Virus record (IMG/VR): IMGVR_UViG_3300045930_000147
Coordinates: 1 to 48,989 of that record
Strand: one strand, 5' to 3'
From: a virus
Length of the DNA: 48,989 bases
Shown: in pieces, positions 5,664 to 17,544 of the stretch
How positions within the stretch are numbered: the stretch's first letter is position 1
Layout: each line of letters begins with the position of its first letter
Notes under the pieces: model-generated
What the model was told of the DNA's origin: nothing
Database searches by the model: none
The model's input: the letters and a program-made list of their open reading frames with translations, nothing else
Position numbers and translations under genes: made by a program

Positions 5664-5919
5664 TGAATGCACCTTTGCGTTCACGCATTTCGAGCGAGGC
5701 CTTGAGCACATCGTCCTCGCGCTGGGCCAGGTCGCGGGCTCGGGCATCCAGGCACACCGCGGCGAATTCAATCTCTGCGCACAGCCGGTCGAGGGTGGCG
5801 GCGCGGCGGATGAGATCGGCGGCCATGCTGTCAAGCATTTGCGCGTCGATAAGGCTGGCGTTCACCTTTGCCGGCGCAAGGCTTGGCGCGTCATGTTTAT
5901 TGCCGAACATTTCCATCAT
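5653..5919 (-). CDS. Helical hypothetical protein
   Basis: 88 residues. The start at 5919 overlaps the upstream stop (ATGA). From residue 20 on it is almost entirely helical with heptad-like spacing (LDSMAADLIRRAATLDRLCAEIEF... ARARDLAQREDDVLKASLEM), suggesting a coiled coil. No motif or family recognised. Confidence 0.65.
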   Translation of the reverse strand: MMEMFGNKHDAPSLAPAKVNASLIDAQMLDSMAADLIRRAATLDRLCAEIEFAAVCLDARARDLAQREDDVLKASLEMRERKGAFSVA

Positions 5920-6227
5920 CCTATTGTCGGCGGGCCGGCCTGCGGATGCTCCGGTCCGTACAATCGCAGCACCTCCGCTTTGGTCTTGTCCGCGACGTAT
6001 TGCTTGAATCGGAACAGGATCAGGTCGGCAATCTGGTAGTCGTCCATGCCGCCCTTGCGGCATTCCTTCATCCATTCGACGATTTTCTCCGCCGCCATCG
6101 AATAGGCGGCGTTTGCCAGGGCCTCGCGCACAGGTCGCGGCAGCATGTCGAAATAGTCAAAATGATTGGCCTCAAGGACGATCTTTTCGCCCTTGATGTT
6201 TCCGTGCTTCGAATCAGTCGTGCTCAT
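5916..6227 (-). CDS. Conserved-type phage hypothetical protein, first gene after a promoter
   Basis: 103 residues. A compact helical core contains DYFDMLPRPVREALANAA and a KTKAEVLRLYGPEHPQ end; short proteins with an 'LPxxVRxAL' core are frequent in alphaproteobacterial phages (recalled pattern, not checked). It starts only a few bases after the likely transcription start of the promoter at 6235-6263, so the message may be nearly leaderless. The nearest SD-like sequence (GAGG) is 13 bases upstream. Confidence 0.7.
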   Translation of the reverse strand: MSTTDSKHGNIKGEKIVLEANHFDYFDMLPRPVREALANAAYSMAAEKIVEWMKECRKGGMDDYQIADLILFRFKQYVADKTKAEVLRLYGPEHPQAGPPTIG

Positions 6228-13600: not shown

Positions 13601-13630
13601 TTGACACTAAAATAATTTGCGCAAAATACT
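13601..13630 (+). promoter_or_regulatory. Rightward promoter candidate 1
   Basis: TTGACA (13601-13606), an 18-base A/T-rich spacer and AATACT (13625-13630). A perfect -35 and a fair -10, in a short AT-rich island within GC-rich sequence, facing the 13886 operon. Confidence 0.55.
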
Positions 13631-13669: not shown

Positions 13670-13811
13670 CGGCTTGCTTTTCGGCCCCATCGCTACGGCA
13701 ACCGCCGGCGCCAATGGCTCAAGCGGGGACTTCCGACGGCACACTTTAGCGGCAAGTGCCACGCTATGGCGCACCGCTACCGGGTAGCCGCACTAATCAC
13801 ATGGTCAAGAA

Positions 13812-13885
13812 TGCAAGCCCATGCCGCGGGCAATTAAAGCGCGGCATGTTCGAGCATTCACGCTCGGCAACCAGGAGAGAAGACC
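13812..13885 (+). promoter_or_regulatory. Two-hairpin structured leader, copy 1
   Basis: GCAAGCC, stem 1 CATGCCGCG (13820-13828) with CGCGGCATG (13840-13848), TT, stem 2 CGAGC (13851-13855) with GCTCG (13862-13866), then GCAAC, GGAG and ATG. Stem 2 differs from the other five copies (CGTGC/GCACG) by a matched pair of changes, which supports real base pairing. Confidence 0.7.
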
Positions 13886-14068
13886 ATGAAACTGAACAAC
13901 CCATACAAGTGGACCGCAAAGGACCGCGCCGAATACGTGACCGAAGTCGAGACCGGCGAGGAAGTCTTTAGCTGCTGCCATGGCCATATCAATTGCGCGA
14001 CATACCCGCACGGCCCTTGCGTTAACGAAGTCATGATTTGCATGGAAGAAAAAGGCGAAAGCGAATGA
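13886..14068 (+). CDS. Small Cys-rich hypothetical protein
   Basis: 60 residues: a charged N-terminal half (YKWTAKDRAEYVTEVETGEE), then CCHGHINCATYPHGPC and MICMEEKGESE. Five Cys and two His in a short span suggest metal binding. First gene of the small-gene operon, preceded by leader copy 1 and a GGAG ribosome site. Function unknown. Confidence 0.65.
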   Translation: MKLNNPYKWTAKDRAEYVTEVETGEEVFSCCHGHINCATYPHGPCVNEVMICMEEKGESE

Positions 14069-14256
14069 AAACCCCGCAAGTGCCGGCCCTGCCCGGCATG
14101 ACCCCGCTCGGCATCAAGCCCTATGCCCAAATTCTGGCAGAGGCGCCGTTAAAGCCTAAGGCCAACCAGGAGGCTTGCGACGTCGGCCTATTCGGGGACG
14201 ACGCAAAGCAATTGGACCTCATCGACATAAGGGCGAAGCCCGTCTCATGCCCATAA
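14065..14256 (+). CDS. Small hypothetical protein
   Basis: 63 residues; the start overlaps the previous stop (ATGA). Pro-rich N-terminus (KTPQVPALPGMTPLGIKPYA), then an acidic C-terminal half (CDVGLFGDDAKQLDLIDI). Translationally coupled to the Cys-rich protein. No family recognised. Confidence 0.6.
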   Translation: MKTPQVPALPGMTPLGIKPYAQILAEAPLKPKANQEACDVGLFGDDAKQLDLIDIRAKPVSCP

Positions 14257-14325
14257 GTGCAAGCCATAGAGCCCCGCGGGGCTCTATTTCGTGCACTCAA
14301 GCACGGCAACGAAAACGGAGAGACC
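14257..14325 (+). promoter_or_regulatory. Two-hairpin structured leader, copy 2
   Basis: Begins directly after the upstream stop: GTGCAAGCC, stem 1 ATAGAGCCCC (14266-14275) with GGGGCTCTAT (14278-14287), TT, stem 2 CGTGC (14290-14294) with GCACG (14301-14305), GCAAC, GGAG, ATG at 14326. Confidence 0.7.
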
Positions 14326-14550
14326 ATGACAGACCTGCGCATAGCCCTGGTTATCAAAGGCACCCCAGGAGAAGCAGCCGCCGCGGCCGCAGCCCGCGGA
14401 ATTCCGCTTTTATTCAAACGCGAGGCTTTGGGCGAAACCATTGGCGAAACCAGCGAAGACTACCGCGACAAGGTGGGCGCCTGGTTTGCCGAACAGCCGG
14501 CCAGCGCACCATTCCCAGCCGGGACCTTGCTGCTCTACCAGGACGCCTAA
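14326..14550 (+). CDS. Small hypothetical protein
   Basis: 74 residues: a strand-helix start (DLRIALVIKGTPGEAAAAAA), a strand (GIPLLFKREA), an acidic helix and a final strand (TLLLYQDA). Reads as a small alpha/beta protein. It has its own structured leader and a GGAG site. No family recognised. Confidence 0.6.
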   Translation: MTDLRIALVIKGTPGEAAAAAAARGIPLLFKREALGETIGETSEDYRDKVGAWFAEQPASAPFPAGTLLLYQDA

Positions 14551-14633
14551 GCCATCCTCGCGATTGCAAGCCCAAGGCGCCGCAACACGGCGCCTTGTTC
14601 GTGCAATCCCGCACGGCAACAGGAGACTAGACC
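14551..14633 (+). promoter_or_regulatory. Two-hairpin structured leader, copy 3
   Basis: Core GCAAGCCC at 14566-14573; stem 1 AAGGCGCCG (14574-14582) with CGGCGCCTT (14588-14596); stem 2 CGTGC (14600-14604) with GCACG (14611-14615); GCAAC, AGGAG, ATG at 14634. Precedes the largest gene of the operon. Confidence 0.7.
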
Positions 14634-15695
14634 ATGAAGACCGGATTAAGCCTTTCAGAATTGGCCGCCAAGATCGAAGGCAATAAAGCCCTGAAACAGG
14701 ATTTTATTGCAGACACCGCGGCGACCACGATGCAAGTGCAAGCCGATAAAACGATCGTGCTTGAAATCCCGCAGCCTGGGACCGCTATCCCGAATAGCTT
14801 TCCCATCCTGCCAATCGCGCACGATCAAATCGGCGCACGGCTGAACATTCCGGCCAAATACTACGACCGGATGCAGGCCGAGGCGCCCGATTTGCTGGCG
14901 ACAAACGTAAATGCTTGGTTCCGCAAGAACCCCGAAAAGCGGATGATAAGAACGCTCGGCGGCGACGCCCGCGCCTTCCTGTCAAACCGCTACAATCGCA
15001 TCGAAAACGAGGAAATTGCAGAGGTTGTTTTGCCAATCCTGGCAGACATCCCCGGCGTTCGAATCCTTTCGAGCGAAATCACGGACCGGCGAATGTATAT
15101 CCAAGCCCTGACCCCGCGCACCGAAGGCGAGGTAAAAAAGGGCGACGTCGTACAGGCCGGAGTCGTGATCTCCAACTCAGAGACCGGACACGGCGCCGTC
15201 AGCATTTCCCCGCTGGTTTATCGCCTGGTCTGCCTCAATGGCATGATCGCCAACGATGGACGCCTGCGGGCAAACCACGTCGGCGGCCGTATCGAGGAGA
15301 CGGAAGCGCTCTACCAGGACGACACCAGGAAAGCGGACGACCGGGCAATCTTGCTCAAGGTCCGCGACCACGTCCGCAATGCGGTCGACTCGGTGGCGTT
15401 TGCTGCCCGCGTCGAAGCCATGGCCGGCCTTGTGCGCCAGCCGATCGCCGGCGATCCGGTGGCGGCCGTCGAAGTGCTGGCCAAAAAAGTCGGCGCCACC
15501 GACGGCGAGCGGGGCGGGATCCTGCGCTCGCTGATCGAGGGCGGCGACCTGTCCGCCTGGGGATTGCTGAACGCAGTCACCGCGCAAGCCCACGCGGCGC
15601 CCGACTATGACCGCTCAATCGATTTTGAGCGCATGGGCGGCGCCTTGCTTGAGCTCCCCCGCAACGAATGGACGCGAGTCCTTGAGGCGGCCTAA
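14634..15695 (+). CDS. DUF932-family phage/plasmid protein
   Basis: 353 residues, typical of DUF932 (phage and plasmid-like) proteins. The N-terminus is a helix (LSELAAKIEGNKALKQDF), then IAHDQIGARLNIPAKYYDRM and RTLGGDARAFLSNRYNRIEN, the most recognisable family stretch (G-x-x-RAFLSxRYxRxxN), followed by QAGVVISNSETGHGAVSI and YRLVCLNGMI. The family is widespread on plasmids and phages, often near replication or recombination genes; its biochemical role is not established to my knowledge. It has its own structured leader, suggesting separate translational control. Confidence 0.85.
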   Translation: MKTGLSLSELAAKIEGNKALKQDFIADTAATTMQVQADKTIVLEIPQPGTAIPNSFPILPIAHDQIGARLNIPAKYYDRMQAEAPDLLATNVNAWFRKNPEKRMIRTLGGDARAFLSNRYNRIENEEIAEVVLPILADIPGVRILSSEITDRRMYIQALTPRTEGEVKKGDVVQAGVVISNSETGHGAVSISPLVYRLVCLNGMIANDGRLRANHVGGRIEETEALYQDDTRKADDRAILLKVRDHVRNAVDSVAFAARVEAMAGLVRQPIAGDPVAAVEVLAKKVGATDGERGGILRSLIEGGDLSAWGLLNAVTAQAHAAPDYDRSIDFERMGGALLELPRNEWTRVLEAA

Positions 15696-15772
15696 CGATG
15701 CAAGCCCAGGCGGCCGGCTTCACAAGCCGGCCGCCTGATCGTGCACCGCACGGCAACAGAGGAGAAAGAACG
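15696..15772 (+). promoter_or_regulatory. Two-hairpin structured leader, copy 4
   Basis: TGCAAGCCC at 15699-15707; stem 1 AGGCGGCCGGCTT (15708-15720) with AAGCCGGCCGCCT (15724-15736), 13 pairs and the longest of the set; stem 2 CGTGC (15740-15744) with GCACG (15748-15752), three-base loop; GCAAC, GGAG, ATG at 15773. Confidence 0.7.
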
Positions 15773-15925
15773 ATGTCCGACCATGATGCAATGCTCGCCA
15801 TCCAAGAATGCTTGGACGGCACCGAATGGAATTCGAACACGCTTGAGGAGGTTGCGGCGATCATGACCGCGGCCGGCTACAAAATCCGCGACCTCGACGA
15901 CGTCGAACGCGAGGCCACACCATGA
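15773..15925 (+). CDS. Small acidic hypothetical protein
   Basis: 50 residues, acidic and helical (DHDAMLAIQECLDGTEWNSN, then TLEEVAAIMTAAGYKIRDLD). The pattern of two helices with a GY turn resembles small phage proteins of unknown role. Followed by an ATGA overlap. Confidence 0.6.
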   Translation: MSDHDAMLAIQECLDGTEWNSNTLEEVAAIMTAAGYKIRDLDDVEREATP

Positions 15926-16176
15926 ACCCGCTAACAATCGGAGCGCTCATGCTGGCCGGCTTTGCGTTCCTAACCTGGGCAACCGCGCCGGCAAAATACG
16001 GCGCCGAGCCGCGGCTAACACCGAATGCCGAAGACTCTGACTTTTGCATGCCGGCCGAAGTCACAGGCGGAGCCGCGATCGCCTACCACTGCCACGCCGG
16101 CGAGATCGGTTGCAAAACGCACCCCGTAACGGATTGCGAGGCCGACGATCGCGACGACTTTGCAGAAGATGATTAG
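15922..16176 (+). CDS. Small membrane-anchored or secreted Cys-containing protein
   Basis: 84 residues. A hydrophobic N-terminus (IGALMLAGFAFLTWATAPA) may be a signal anchor. The rest has four Cys (FCMPAEV... YHCHAGEIGCKTHPVTDCEA) and an acidic end, so disulfide pairing outside the cytoplasm is plausible. ATGA overlap with the previous gene. Function unknown. Confidence 0.6.
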   Translation: MNPLTIGALMLAGFAFLTWATAPAKYGAEPRLTPNAEDSDFCMPAEVTGGAAIAYHCHAGEIGCKTHPVTDCEADDRDDFAEDD

Positions 16177-16251
16177 TGCAAGCCCAAGGCGCTGCGGACC
16201 CCGCGGCGCTTTGTTCGTGCACTTTCGCACGGCAACAGAGGAGATAAGACC
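16177..16251 (+). promoter_or_regulatory. Two-hairpin structured leader, copy 5
   Basis: TGCAAGCCC directly after the stop; stem 1 AAGGCGCTGCGG (16186-16197) with CCGCGGCGCTTT (16201-16212), pairing with two G-U wobbles; stem 2 CGTGC (16216-16220) with GCACG (16227-16231); GCAAC, GGAG, ATG at 16252. Confidence 0.7.
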
Positions 16252-16755
16252 ATGAGCACCTTTATTGAGCCGGCCGAGATCCTGGCCGGCCACGTCTCAC
16301 CGGAGACCGCGTACGTTGTCGCGGATTACCCGTATGGCTATACGCTGCGCTGCAAAATCCGCTATTGGCTGGAATTCAAATCGGGCAAGGGAGTCCGATT
16401 CTGGTCGCAAACGACAAACCCCAAGCGACCCGGCGAAGTCTGGAACAAGCCGAAGTCTTCCACTTACTGCCGTTTCGGCGGCGCCATGTACCTGGACGAA
16501 AACGGCCACTGCAAATGGAGCGGACTCACCGAATACAGCACGGCCGCCGAGGCGCAAGCCTGGGCGAGCAAATGGCGCGAAGGCGTCCCACCGGAAGCCC
16601 TGCCCGACCTTGACCGCTGGATTGCGGGCAAGGTTGCGTATGAGCAAGCCCGCGCCAAGGCGGCCGGCGAGGAGCCCACCCATACCCTGCCGCTCGCCGT
16701 CGGCCTGGTCGAGGCTCACCAGGCGATGGCCGCGGCCGACAAGACCGAGAAATAG
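16252..16755 (+). CDS. Hypothetical phage protein
   Basis: 167 residues. The beta-rich N-terminal half has YPYGYTLRCKIRYWLEFKSG, FWSQTTNPKRP and CRFGGAMYLDENGHCKW. The C-terminal half is helical and Ala-rich. Proteins with this core occur in phages, where I know no assigned function. Own structured leader and GGAG site. Confidence 0.65.
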   Translation: MSTFIEPAEILAGHVSPETAYVVADYPYGYTLRCKIRYWLEFKSGKGVRFWSQTTNPKRPGEVWNKPKSSTYCRFGGAMYLDENGHCKWSGLTEYSTAAEAQAWASKWREGVPPEALPDLDRWIAGKVAYEQARAKAAGEEPTHTLPLAVGLVEAHQAMAAADKTEK

Positions 16756-16835
16756 CGCAAGCCCAGGCGGCCGGCTTTTTGGAGCTCGGCCGCCTGATCG
16801 TGCGCTTAAGCACGGCAACGAAAGGAGCGAAGACC
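16756..16835 (+). promoter_or_regulatory. Two-hairpin structured leader, copy 6
   Basis: GCAAGCCC; stem 1 AGGCGGCCG (16765-16773) with CGGCCGCCT (16787-16795), longer loop; stem 2 CGTGC (16799-16803) with GCACG (16810-16814); GCAAC, AGGAG, ATG at 16836. Confidence 0.7.
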
Positions 16836-17072
16836 ATGCCTATTGATTGGGACGACCCGGCCGCCCGCGGCCGGTTGATCGAAAGAGTCGGCGCCGAGGA
16901 ATACAGCCGACTCCTTGCAATCCACTTCAAGCAAAGCACCCTTGCGACCATCAACGGCCACGCAATTCGGCCGGTTATGTCGCGCTTCGGGCGCCTGTTT
17001 TCGGTGGGAAACACTAACCGCGCTTTTGCCACCCTGGGCGAGGCGGCCGCCTTTGCGAGGGCAACGCCATGA
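16836..17072 (+). CDS. Small hypothetical protein
   Basis: 78 residues: helical start (DDPAARGRLIERVGAEEYSR), a basic strand region (INGHAIRPVMSRFGRLFSVG) and a helical end. No motif recognised. Preceded by leader copy 6 and followed by an ATGA overlap. Confidence 0.6.
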   Translation: MPIDWDDPAARGRLIERVGAEEYSRLLAIHFKQSTLATINGHAIRPVMSRFGRLFSVGNTNRAFATLGEAAAFARATP

Positions 17073-17392
17073 GCATCGACGGCAAAGCAATCGCCTACGG
17101 CGCCCTTTTCCTGGCGGCCGTAGCGGTGGCCCTGGCCGGCCACCTCATAACCCCGCCGGCCGCAACCCCGCCGCGACCTATCCCAGCGATTAAGCCGATG
17201 GACATGGGCCGGCACCTTGAGGAAATGATCGACCGGCAACAGAGTCGGGACCTTAACAGCCTGGGCAAGATCGGCCCCGAGCACGATGCCTGGATCCTGA
17301 AACGCTACCAGAAGCCGGCACCGGCGCCGCAACCTGCAAAACCACCGGACACCCGAGTCCGGCCGCGGCCCTTGATATTTCAGACGACCTAA
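17069..17392 (+). CDS. Small membrane-anchored Pro-rich protein
   Basis: 107 residues. One N-terminal hydrophobic helix (AIAYGALFLAAVAVALAGHL), a Pro-rich linker (PPAATPPRPIP), a polar helix and a Pro-rich basic tail. Probably anchored in the inner membrane with a periplasmic tail. Last gene of the operon, followed by a terminator. Confidence 0.6.
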   Translation: MSIDGKAIAYGALFLAAVAVALAGHLITPPAATPPRPIPAIKPMDMGRHLEEMIDRQQSRDLNSLGKIGPEHDAWILKRYQKPAPAPQPAKPPDTRVRPRPLIFQTT

Positions 17393-17395
17393 CGA

Positions 17396-17467
17396 AACCG
17401 GCCGCGAGCGATCGCGGCCGGCCACTCCCCCGCCCGCCCGGCACCCGCCGCGGCGGGCTTTTTTTGC
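17396..17467 (+). terminator. Rightward terminator region (two hairpins, T run)
   Basis: A CCGGCCGCGA / TCGCGGCCGG stem, then GCCCGCC...GGCGGGC followed by TTTTTTT at about 17460-17466. This is a clear intrinsic terminator for the 13886-17392 operon. Confidence 0.8.
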
Positions 17468-17492
17468 GCCGACCGGCGCCGGCCGGCCCAAG

Positions 17493-17544
17493 CCTGGACG
17501 GGCAGCCCGATTCAACAAAACCTGGACGGGCAGCCCGATTCAAC
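17493..17544. repeat. Two tandem 24-base direct repeats
   Basis: 17493-17516 and 17521-17544 are identical 24-mers beginning CCTGGACGGGCAG and separated by AAAA. They lie between the rightward terminator and the end of the leftward cassette. A replication slip or an iteron-like binding site are both possible. Confidence 0.85.

Follow-up and report, generated by a model that had tools for sequence, protein, structure and literature searches.

The element and its operon

The locus considered here raises the question of why one short structured element should recur along a single phage operon, and what that element does there. The window, that is, the whole 48,989-nt stretch of the IMG/VR virus record IMGVR_UViG_3300045930_000147, contains six copies of an element of about 60 nt, all on the + strand and spanning positions 13806-16816. 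The pattern GCAAGCCN{15,45}TCGNGCN{2,10}GCNCGGCAAC, which served as the search definition, matched six times in the window and not once in 100 dinucleotide-preserving shuffles, with the GCAAGCC starts at 13813, 14259, 14566, 15700, 16178, and 16757. All six copies with a shared layout that the initial annotation had listed are thus present, at coordinates that were correct to 1-2 nt.

The operon consists of nine genes arranged in six units, three monocistronic and three dicistronic. The three genes that have no element of their own start in an ATGA overlap with the previous stop codon, and the earlier proposal of one element per translation unit is right. The related statement, which places each copy after a stop codon and before the next start, applies to copies 2-6 and not to copy 1, which lies in the leader of the first gene. 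The features of the region, all on the + strand, are the following:

13601..13630, +, promoter-like site TTGACA-18-AATACT, a consensus match only and not above the chance count, about 170 nt before copy 1
13806..13866, +, copy 1: P0 13809-13814/13854-13859 (GAATGC/GCATTC, no stop codon in it), stem 1 13820-13828/13840-13848, P2 13851-13855/13862-13866 (CGAGC/GCTCG)
13886..14256, +, unit 1: two small genes (60 and 63 aa) with ATGA overlap, no family found
14252..14305, +, copy 2: P0 14255-14260/14293-14298 (AGTGC/GCACT), stem 1 14266-14274/14279-14287, P2 14290-14294/14301-14305; the upstream TAA stop (14254-14256) extends into P0
14326..14550, +, unit 2: gene of 74 aa, no family found
14559..14615, +, copy 3: P0 14562-14567/14603-14608 (GATTGC/GCAATC), stem 1 14573-14581/14589-14597, P2 14600-14604/14611-14615; upstream of the DUF932 gene
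14634..15695, +, unit 3: protein of 353 aa, DUF932 (PF06067, E 2.9e-9; phrog_1362)
15693..15752, +, copy 4: stem 1 15707-15715/15729-15737 (up to 14 bp), P2 15740-15744/15748-15752 with a 3-nt loop; P0 weak (GATGC/GCACC, one A-C mismatch)
15773..16176, +, unit 4: two genes (50 aa, phrog_15104; 84 aa) with ATGA overlap
16171..16231, +, copy 5: P0 16174-16179/16219-16224 (AGTGC/GCACT, upstream TAG stop inside), stem 1 16185-16193/16205-16213, P2 16216-16220/16227-16231
16252..16755, +, unit 5: gene of 167 aa, no family above cut-off
16750..16814, +, copy 6: P0 16753-16758/16802-16807 (AGCGC/GCGCT, upstream TAG stop inside), stem 1 16764-16772/16788-16796, P2 16799-16803/16810-16814
16836..17392, +, unit 6: two genes (78 and 107 aa) with ATGA overlap
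17444..17464, +, terminator-like hairpin with T-run at the operon end, from the strand scan

Two further observations concern the neighborhood. The 167-aa product of unit 5 has a sub-threshold match to the antitoxin VbhA (PF18495, E 0.006, 17.0 bits vs a cut-off of 25.9), and positions 17490-17544, just past the operon terminator, hold a tandem 27-nt repeat, AAGCCTGGACGGGCAGCCCGATTCAAC, in two copies that are 96% identical.

Three strands and two exclusive folds

The element had been described as two independent hairpins, stem 1 and a short stem 2 (here P2). This description did not survive the folding of each copy, which revealed an overlooked outer helix below stem 1, named P0, that overlaps stem 2 and belongs to the minimum-energy structure in five of the six window copies. 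The element is built instead from three strands: strand A, the 5' strand of P0, ends in GC just before AAGCC; strand B, the 3' strand of P0, starts with the GC of CGNGC and runs on into the P2 loop; and strand C is the 3' strand of P2. Strand B pairs either with A, forming P0, or with C, forming P2, and because the GC and the P2 loop are common to both pairings the two helices are mutually exclusive. A classical pseudoknot, with P0 and P2 together, was considered and rejected in favor of alternative folds, since both helices would need the GC of strand B and since some copies (window copy 4, L354:5385-5441) have P2 loops of 3-4 nt, too short to accommodate it.

The two states are nearly equal in computed energy, with medians of -21.2 kcal/mol for P0 plus stem 1 and -21.9 kcal/mol for stem 1 plus P2 (41-42 copies). 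In predictions from single sequences, the median probability of P2 is 0.03 in the full RNA and rises to 0.98 when strand A is masked, which mimics a terminating ribosome, or when the RNA starts at CGNGC, which mimics the product of a cut. P2 is thus predicted to form once strand A is masked or removed. The predicted accessibility of the Shine-Dalgarno (SD) sequence is alike in the three conditions (medians 0.585, 0.576, and 0.566), and the distance from the end of P2 to the ATG is nearly fixed, with a median of 19 nt. The earlier suggestion of a translational control element is, in its usual form, not favored by this equality of SD accessibility between the states.

P0 is weak in some relatives of the window phage, as it is in copy 4. 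As a separate observation, in the phage group formed by L281:1455-1506 (-), L286:4667-4718 (+), and L291 the first of two copies has no 3' strand of P2 (CGTGCAATCCCcagggaccg), so that only P0 is possible there.

Covariation and the conserved core

Within the window, four sequence families of stem 1 can be told apart (copy 1; copy 2; copies 3 and 5; copies 4 and 6), and the stem pairs in all six copies, in agreement with the first reading of this stem as variable in sequence and constant in pairing. P2 is CGTGC/GCACG in five copies, and the change on both sides to CGAGC/GCTCG that had been reported for copy 1 is seen. The form of P0 found in copy 3 is the commonest among the other phages that carry the element.

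Sets of 18, 47, and 56 distinct copies were tested, with a similar outcome in all three. Among the 56 copies, standard pairs occupy 96.4% of the pair cells, vs 70.9% after shuffling and no more than 41.8% when the partners are slid; 14 of the 18 pairs vary on both sides, and five measures were reached by no shuffle. The covarying pairs comprise all nine in stem 1, all four tested in P0, and one in P2. This last is the middle pair, UA in 36 copies and AU in 16; the other four pairs of P2 show no variation beyond a few mispairs, and the support for P2 thus consists of its middle pair and its conservation. Alignments A4 and A5 were fitted to the model, and copies inside one phage group are kin; the MAFFT alignment A3, which was not fitted to the model, gave the same picture. 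The case for a selected RNA structure, first argued from paired changes in six copies, is strengthened by covariation in 56, with the stems altered independently. A last scan, in which the outermost P0 pair was left free, added nine distinct new copies, four of them paired at that position (CG, AU, CG, GU) and five unpaired (four GA, one AC), which indicates that this outermost pair is optional.

Between the 6-bp P0 and the 8-14-bp stem 1 lies an internal loop, AAGNN/NNCGN (5/5), in which A11-G52 and G12-C51 show no change across 47 copies. Watson-Crick combinations occur at the next two positions, 14/49 and 13/50, in 0 and 4 of the 47 copies, respectively, whereas shuffling predicts 6.0 and 14.0; this avoidance of pairing argues that the loop is selected to stay open. 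Because strand B uses its GC to pair with A as well as with C, the invariance of that GC is accounted for. Pairing does not explain the invariance of AAG/CG, which needs another reason.

Distribution among phages

IMG/VR was scanned first with patterns and then with a covariance model (R1) made from 18 copies, and many further copies with compensatory changes were found. The element occurs in about 40 further IMG/VR phage contigs, many of them near-duplicates, with 1-16 copies each; L011 and L029/L035 represent the window phage itself. The largest number, 16 copies on a single strand, belongs to the 39-kb G009, and the other carriers have one to three. The carriers fall into at least five phage groups with almost no proteins in common: the window phage, with head-tail adaptor and tail proteins and RecE/Erf; G009; the 69-72-kb contractile phages G007/G013/G014/G015, whose tail sheath is related to those of Agrobacterium phages Milano and 7-7-1 and of two phages listed under Synechococcus; G008; and G019/G020. 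Further carriers are L059 and several phages of 51 kb (L418, L425-L427). No protein common to all of the carriers compared was found, nor was an RNase III encoded by a phage, 13 carriers having no RNase III gene. The genes downstream are mostly unrelated as well (31 singletons of 54).

Stem 1 can differ wholly and yet pair even between orthologous sites whose downstream proteins share 90-94% identity, as in L232:4755 and L389:6462, in L418 and L425, and in L281:1455 and L286:4667. One recent duplication, an origin that would have told against the first reading, does not account for this replacement with retained pairing. It is plausible that the replacement of stems avoids recombination, and hence gene deletion, between six to sixteen identical direct repeats.

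Beyond these carriers, a strict-pattern scan, in one form, of about 800 bacterial (proteobacterial) genomes and a scan of the genome collection with the GTGC variant gave chance-level matches only. A BLAST search with pieces of the consensus returned no carrier among 50,697 phage records, and the element is absent from eight isolate phages related to the carriers and from the DUF932 relatives L056-L058. Most matches of the first pattern pass (L001-L006, L008-L010, L012-L028, and others) have no stem-1 hairpin and are due to chance. Three contigs (L007:79-122, L031:8756-8798, L034:1533-1576) have a conserved leader, GCAAGCCGCGC...CTTTTCGGGCGAGGCGCGGCAAC, that fits the first pattern without a stem-1 hairpin and is either a different element or chance.

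A candidate processing site

Of the three functions that had been offered for the element (translational control, processing, and recombination), processing fits best, because of the anatomical match to the RNase III sites of bacteriophage T7. Whether each copy is an intercistronic mRNA-processing site of the T7 RNase III type, with a strand exchange built into it, is in our judgment an evenly balanced matter.

The position of the upstream stop codon is part of this match. In 44 of 54 copies the stop of the upstream gene lies at -10 to -3 from GCAAG, where 8.8% would be expected for random positions, and in 27 of these 44 it is at exactly -5 (as in TGATTGCAAG). Where the stop is elsewhere, the T before GATT is mostly missing and GATT itself is often kept; the helix therefore does not seem to be defined by the stop, which was apparently accommodated within it.

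The T7 gaps 0.4/0.5, 0.7/1, 4.5/4.7, 6.3/6.5, and 18/18.5 and the 0.3 leader, which we take to hold RNase III sites, fold, as does the gap 1/1.1, into a lower stem, an internal loop, and an upper stem, and the upstream UGA is inside the lower stem at 0.4/0.5, 6.3/6.5, and 18/18.5. The T7 sites (R0.3, R0.5, R1, R1.1, R1.3, and late) and the element are both about 60 nt long and extend from a stop codon to the next SD; both consist of a lower stem, a small internal loop, and an upper stem (9-12 bp in T7), and the element shares with several T7 sites an upstream stop within the lower stem. One site precedes the first gene in T7 and in the window alike. As expected of a T7-type site, the element is found in the gap that separates a stop codon from the next ribosome-binding site, or else in the operon leader, and P0, the 5/5 loop, and stem 1 make up an irregular hairpin of about two helical turns. 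In T7, cutting at five sites divides the early RNA into mono- and dicistronic messages (PMC4858673), and the six sites of the window likewise delimit three units of each kind. At R1.1, which is 60 nt long and has a 4/5 internal loop, one main cut yields 47 and 13 nt (PMC6121014).

The two systems also differ. The T7 loop, ACUC/UAUGA with AAGG/CCUU, is not the AAGNN/NNCGN of the element, and the exclusive P2 hairpin is a feature of the element that has no general equivalent in the T7 folds. Sequence homology to T7 was not detected: the best score of model R2, 10.2 bits (E 0.4), is at chance level and not at a processing site. One T7 site merits separate mention. The 1/1.1 gap (L417:150-230, T7 5849-5929) has a low-energy fold with the hairpin AUUGACC/GGUUAAU, the 5' strand of which (UGACCUU) could pair with an upstream AAGGUCA, a possible exchange similar to that between A:B and B:C.

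We infer a sequence of events as follows. As the polycistronic RNA is being made, strand A (in most cases GAUUGC, and often including the upstream stop) would pair with strand B (GCAAUC) around stem 1, giving a hairpin of about 20-25 base-pair steps made of the 6-bp P0, the open AAGNN/NNCGN loop, and an 8-14-bp stem of free sequence. Cleavage of the 3' strand at the internal loop would fall to a double-strand-specific endonuclease of the host, with RNase III the most likely candidate, and would leave an upstream mono- or dicistronic mRNA that ends in stem 1 as a cap. The downstream mRNA would begin near CGNGC, with strand B released from A and free to pair with strand C (GCNCG) in P2, a 5'-terminal hairpin some 19 nt upstream of the start codon, and this hairpin may shield the message against 5'-end-dependent decay. 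The factor required could come from the host, given that the carriers have no protein in common and that 13 of them have no RNase III gene. RNase III needs no conserved sequence, and the invariant GCAAG/CGNGC core is thus only partly explained by such cleavage. The weak P0 of copy 4 and of some relatives, the copy that has no P2 3' strand, and the isolate relatives of carriers in which the element is absent also count against this reading. RNase III preferences differ as well: a longer dsRNA is required by the S. meliloti enzyme than by the E. coli one (PMC6121014).

Alternative explanations

The strongest rival to processing is a switch driven by the ribosome, in which a ribosome that terminates at the upstream stop covers strand A and opens P0, so that P2 forms and initiation at the next gene is altered. 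The clustering of stops just before GCAAG, most often at -5, and the near-equal energies of two states that masking of strand A flips toward P2 speak for such a switch. However, the predicted SD accessibility does not respond to the flip, copy 1 precedes the first gene and has no stop codon in P0, and the lower stems of T7 hold stops too, so that the overlap may reflect compactness only. We consider this explanation unlikely.

Less likely still is a binding site at which a host RNA-binding protein, a ribosomal protein, or a small ligand reads the GCAAG/CGNGC loop and regulates the phage operon. Loop nucleotides that are invariant beyond the needs of pairing, at positions kept open, are consistent with this idea. 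Against it, the carriers share no phage protein, the roughly 800 bacterial genomes gave only chance-level matches to the one strict pattern form, and the mostly unrelated downstream genes do not suggest a metabolite switch.

A recombination or cassette boundary that acts as DNA, allowing small genes to be exchanged between phages, appears very improbable. It would agree with the complete replacement of stem 1 between close relatives and with the presence of the element in unrelated phages beside different genes, but the fixed orientation, the near-fixed 19-nt distance to the start codon, the covariation with conserved mispairs, and the strand common to P2 and P0 all point to RNA, and the flanking genes remain orthologous while the stem changes. 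Finally, intrinsic terminators or attenuators between genes, suggested by a stable GC-rich hairpin after most upstream stops, can be dismissed almost entirely, as stem 1 is followed by NNCGNGC and not by the U-run that defines this class together with a GC-rich hairpin, and the + strand scan found no terminator-like site at any copy and a good one at 17444.

Relation to described elements

The window and six other carrier loci gave no match in Rfam 15 at the gathering threshold, and the sub-threshold matches were far under the cut-off; the earlier impression that no named RNA family has this layout thus held at gathering and relaxed thresholds. No description of the element was found in the open-access literature, which is weak evidence. 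We rate the element as a new RNA family of a known kind of element.

Strand-exchange leaders, such as attenuators and riboswitch platforms, resemble the element in having one strand poised between two exclusive partners; the element differs in having no aptamer-like core, terminator, or SD sequestration, in preceding mostly unrelated genes, and in being repeated along an operon. Returning to the processing reading, a broader proposal is possible, though we think it somewhat doubtful: a new class of phage RNA in which a strand is held in a cleavable helix and, upon cleavage or arrival of a terminating ribosome, forms a new 5'-terminal hairpin, turning polycistronic RNA into individually protected messages, and which has spread across unrelated phages with its stems replaced so that the copies do not recombine.

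The significance of the element lies first in its being a strongly covarying, previously undescribed RNA family in several unrelated phage groups, and a natural, nearly iso-energetic three-strand switch. If the mechanism is true, phages unrelated to T7 cut their early operon into translatable units by the same three-part architecture, in a different sequence and with a self-capping hairpin added. How phages maintain many repeats in direct orientation and still lose no genes could become clear from the exchange of stems seen between close relatives.

The nearest described multi-copy, start-associated phage elements are the SAS and ESAS, which are nonetheless different. Like the element, they occur in multiple copies directly upstream of the start codons of small non-structural genes and include inverted repeats with a variable spacer (PMC3203893). 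The ESAS of cluster K mycobacteriophages consists of two imperfect 17-bp inverted repeats of conserved sequence beside GGGATAGGAGCCC, and its authors found little support for mRNA hairpins (PMC3203893). Its arms are conserved in sequence, whereas those of the element vary freely and covary; membership in the ESAS class was rejected, as the arms of stem 1 have no consensus. A likeness of another kind is seen in G009 (L239, L354), where after most copies the SD lies in a small third hairpin, for instance TTGCC-TAGGAG-GGCAA. The arms of this extra hairpin covary between copies (ACAGCC/GGCTGC, TTGCC/GGCAA), and in shape (GCC-TAGGAG-GGC) it resembles the mycobacteriophage SAS.
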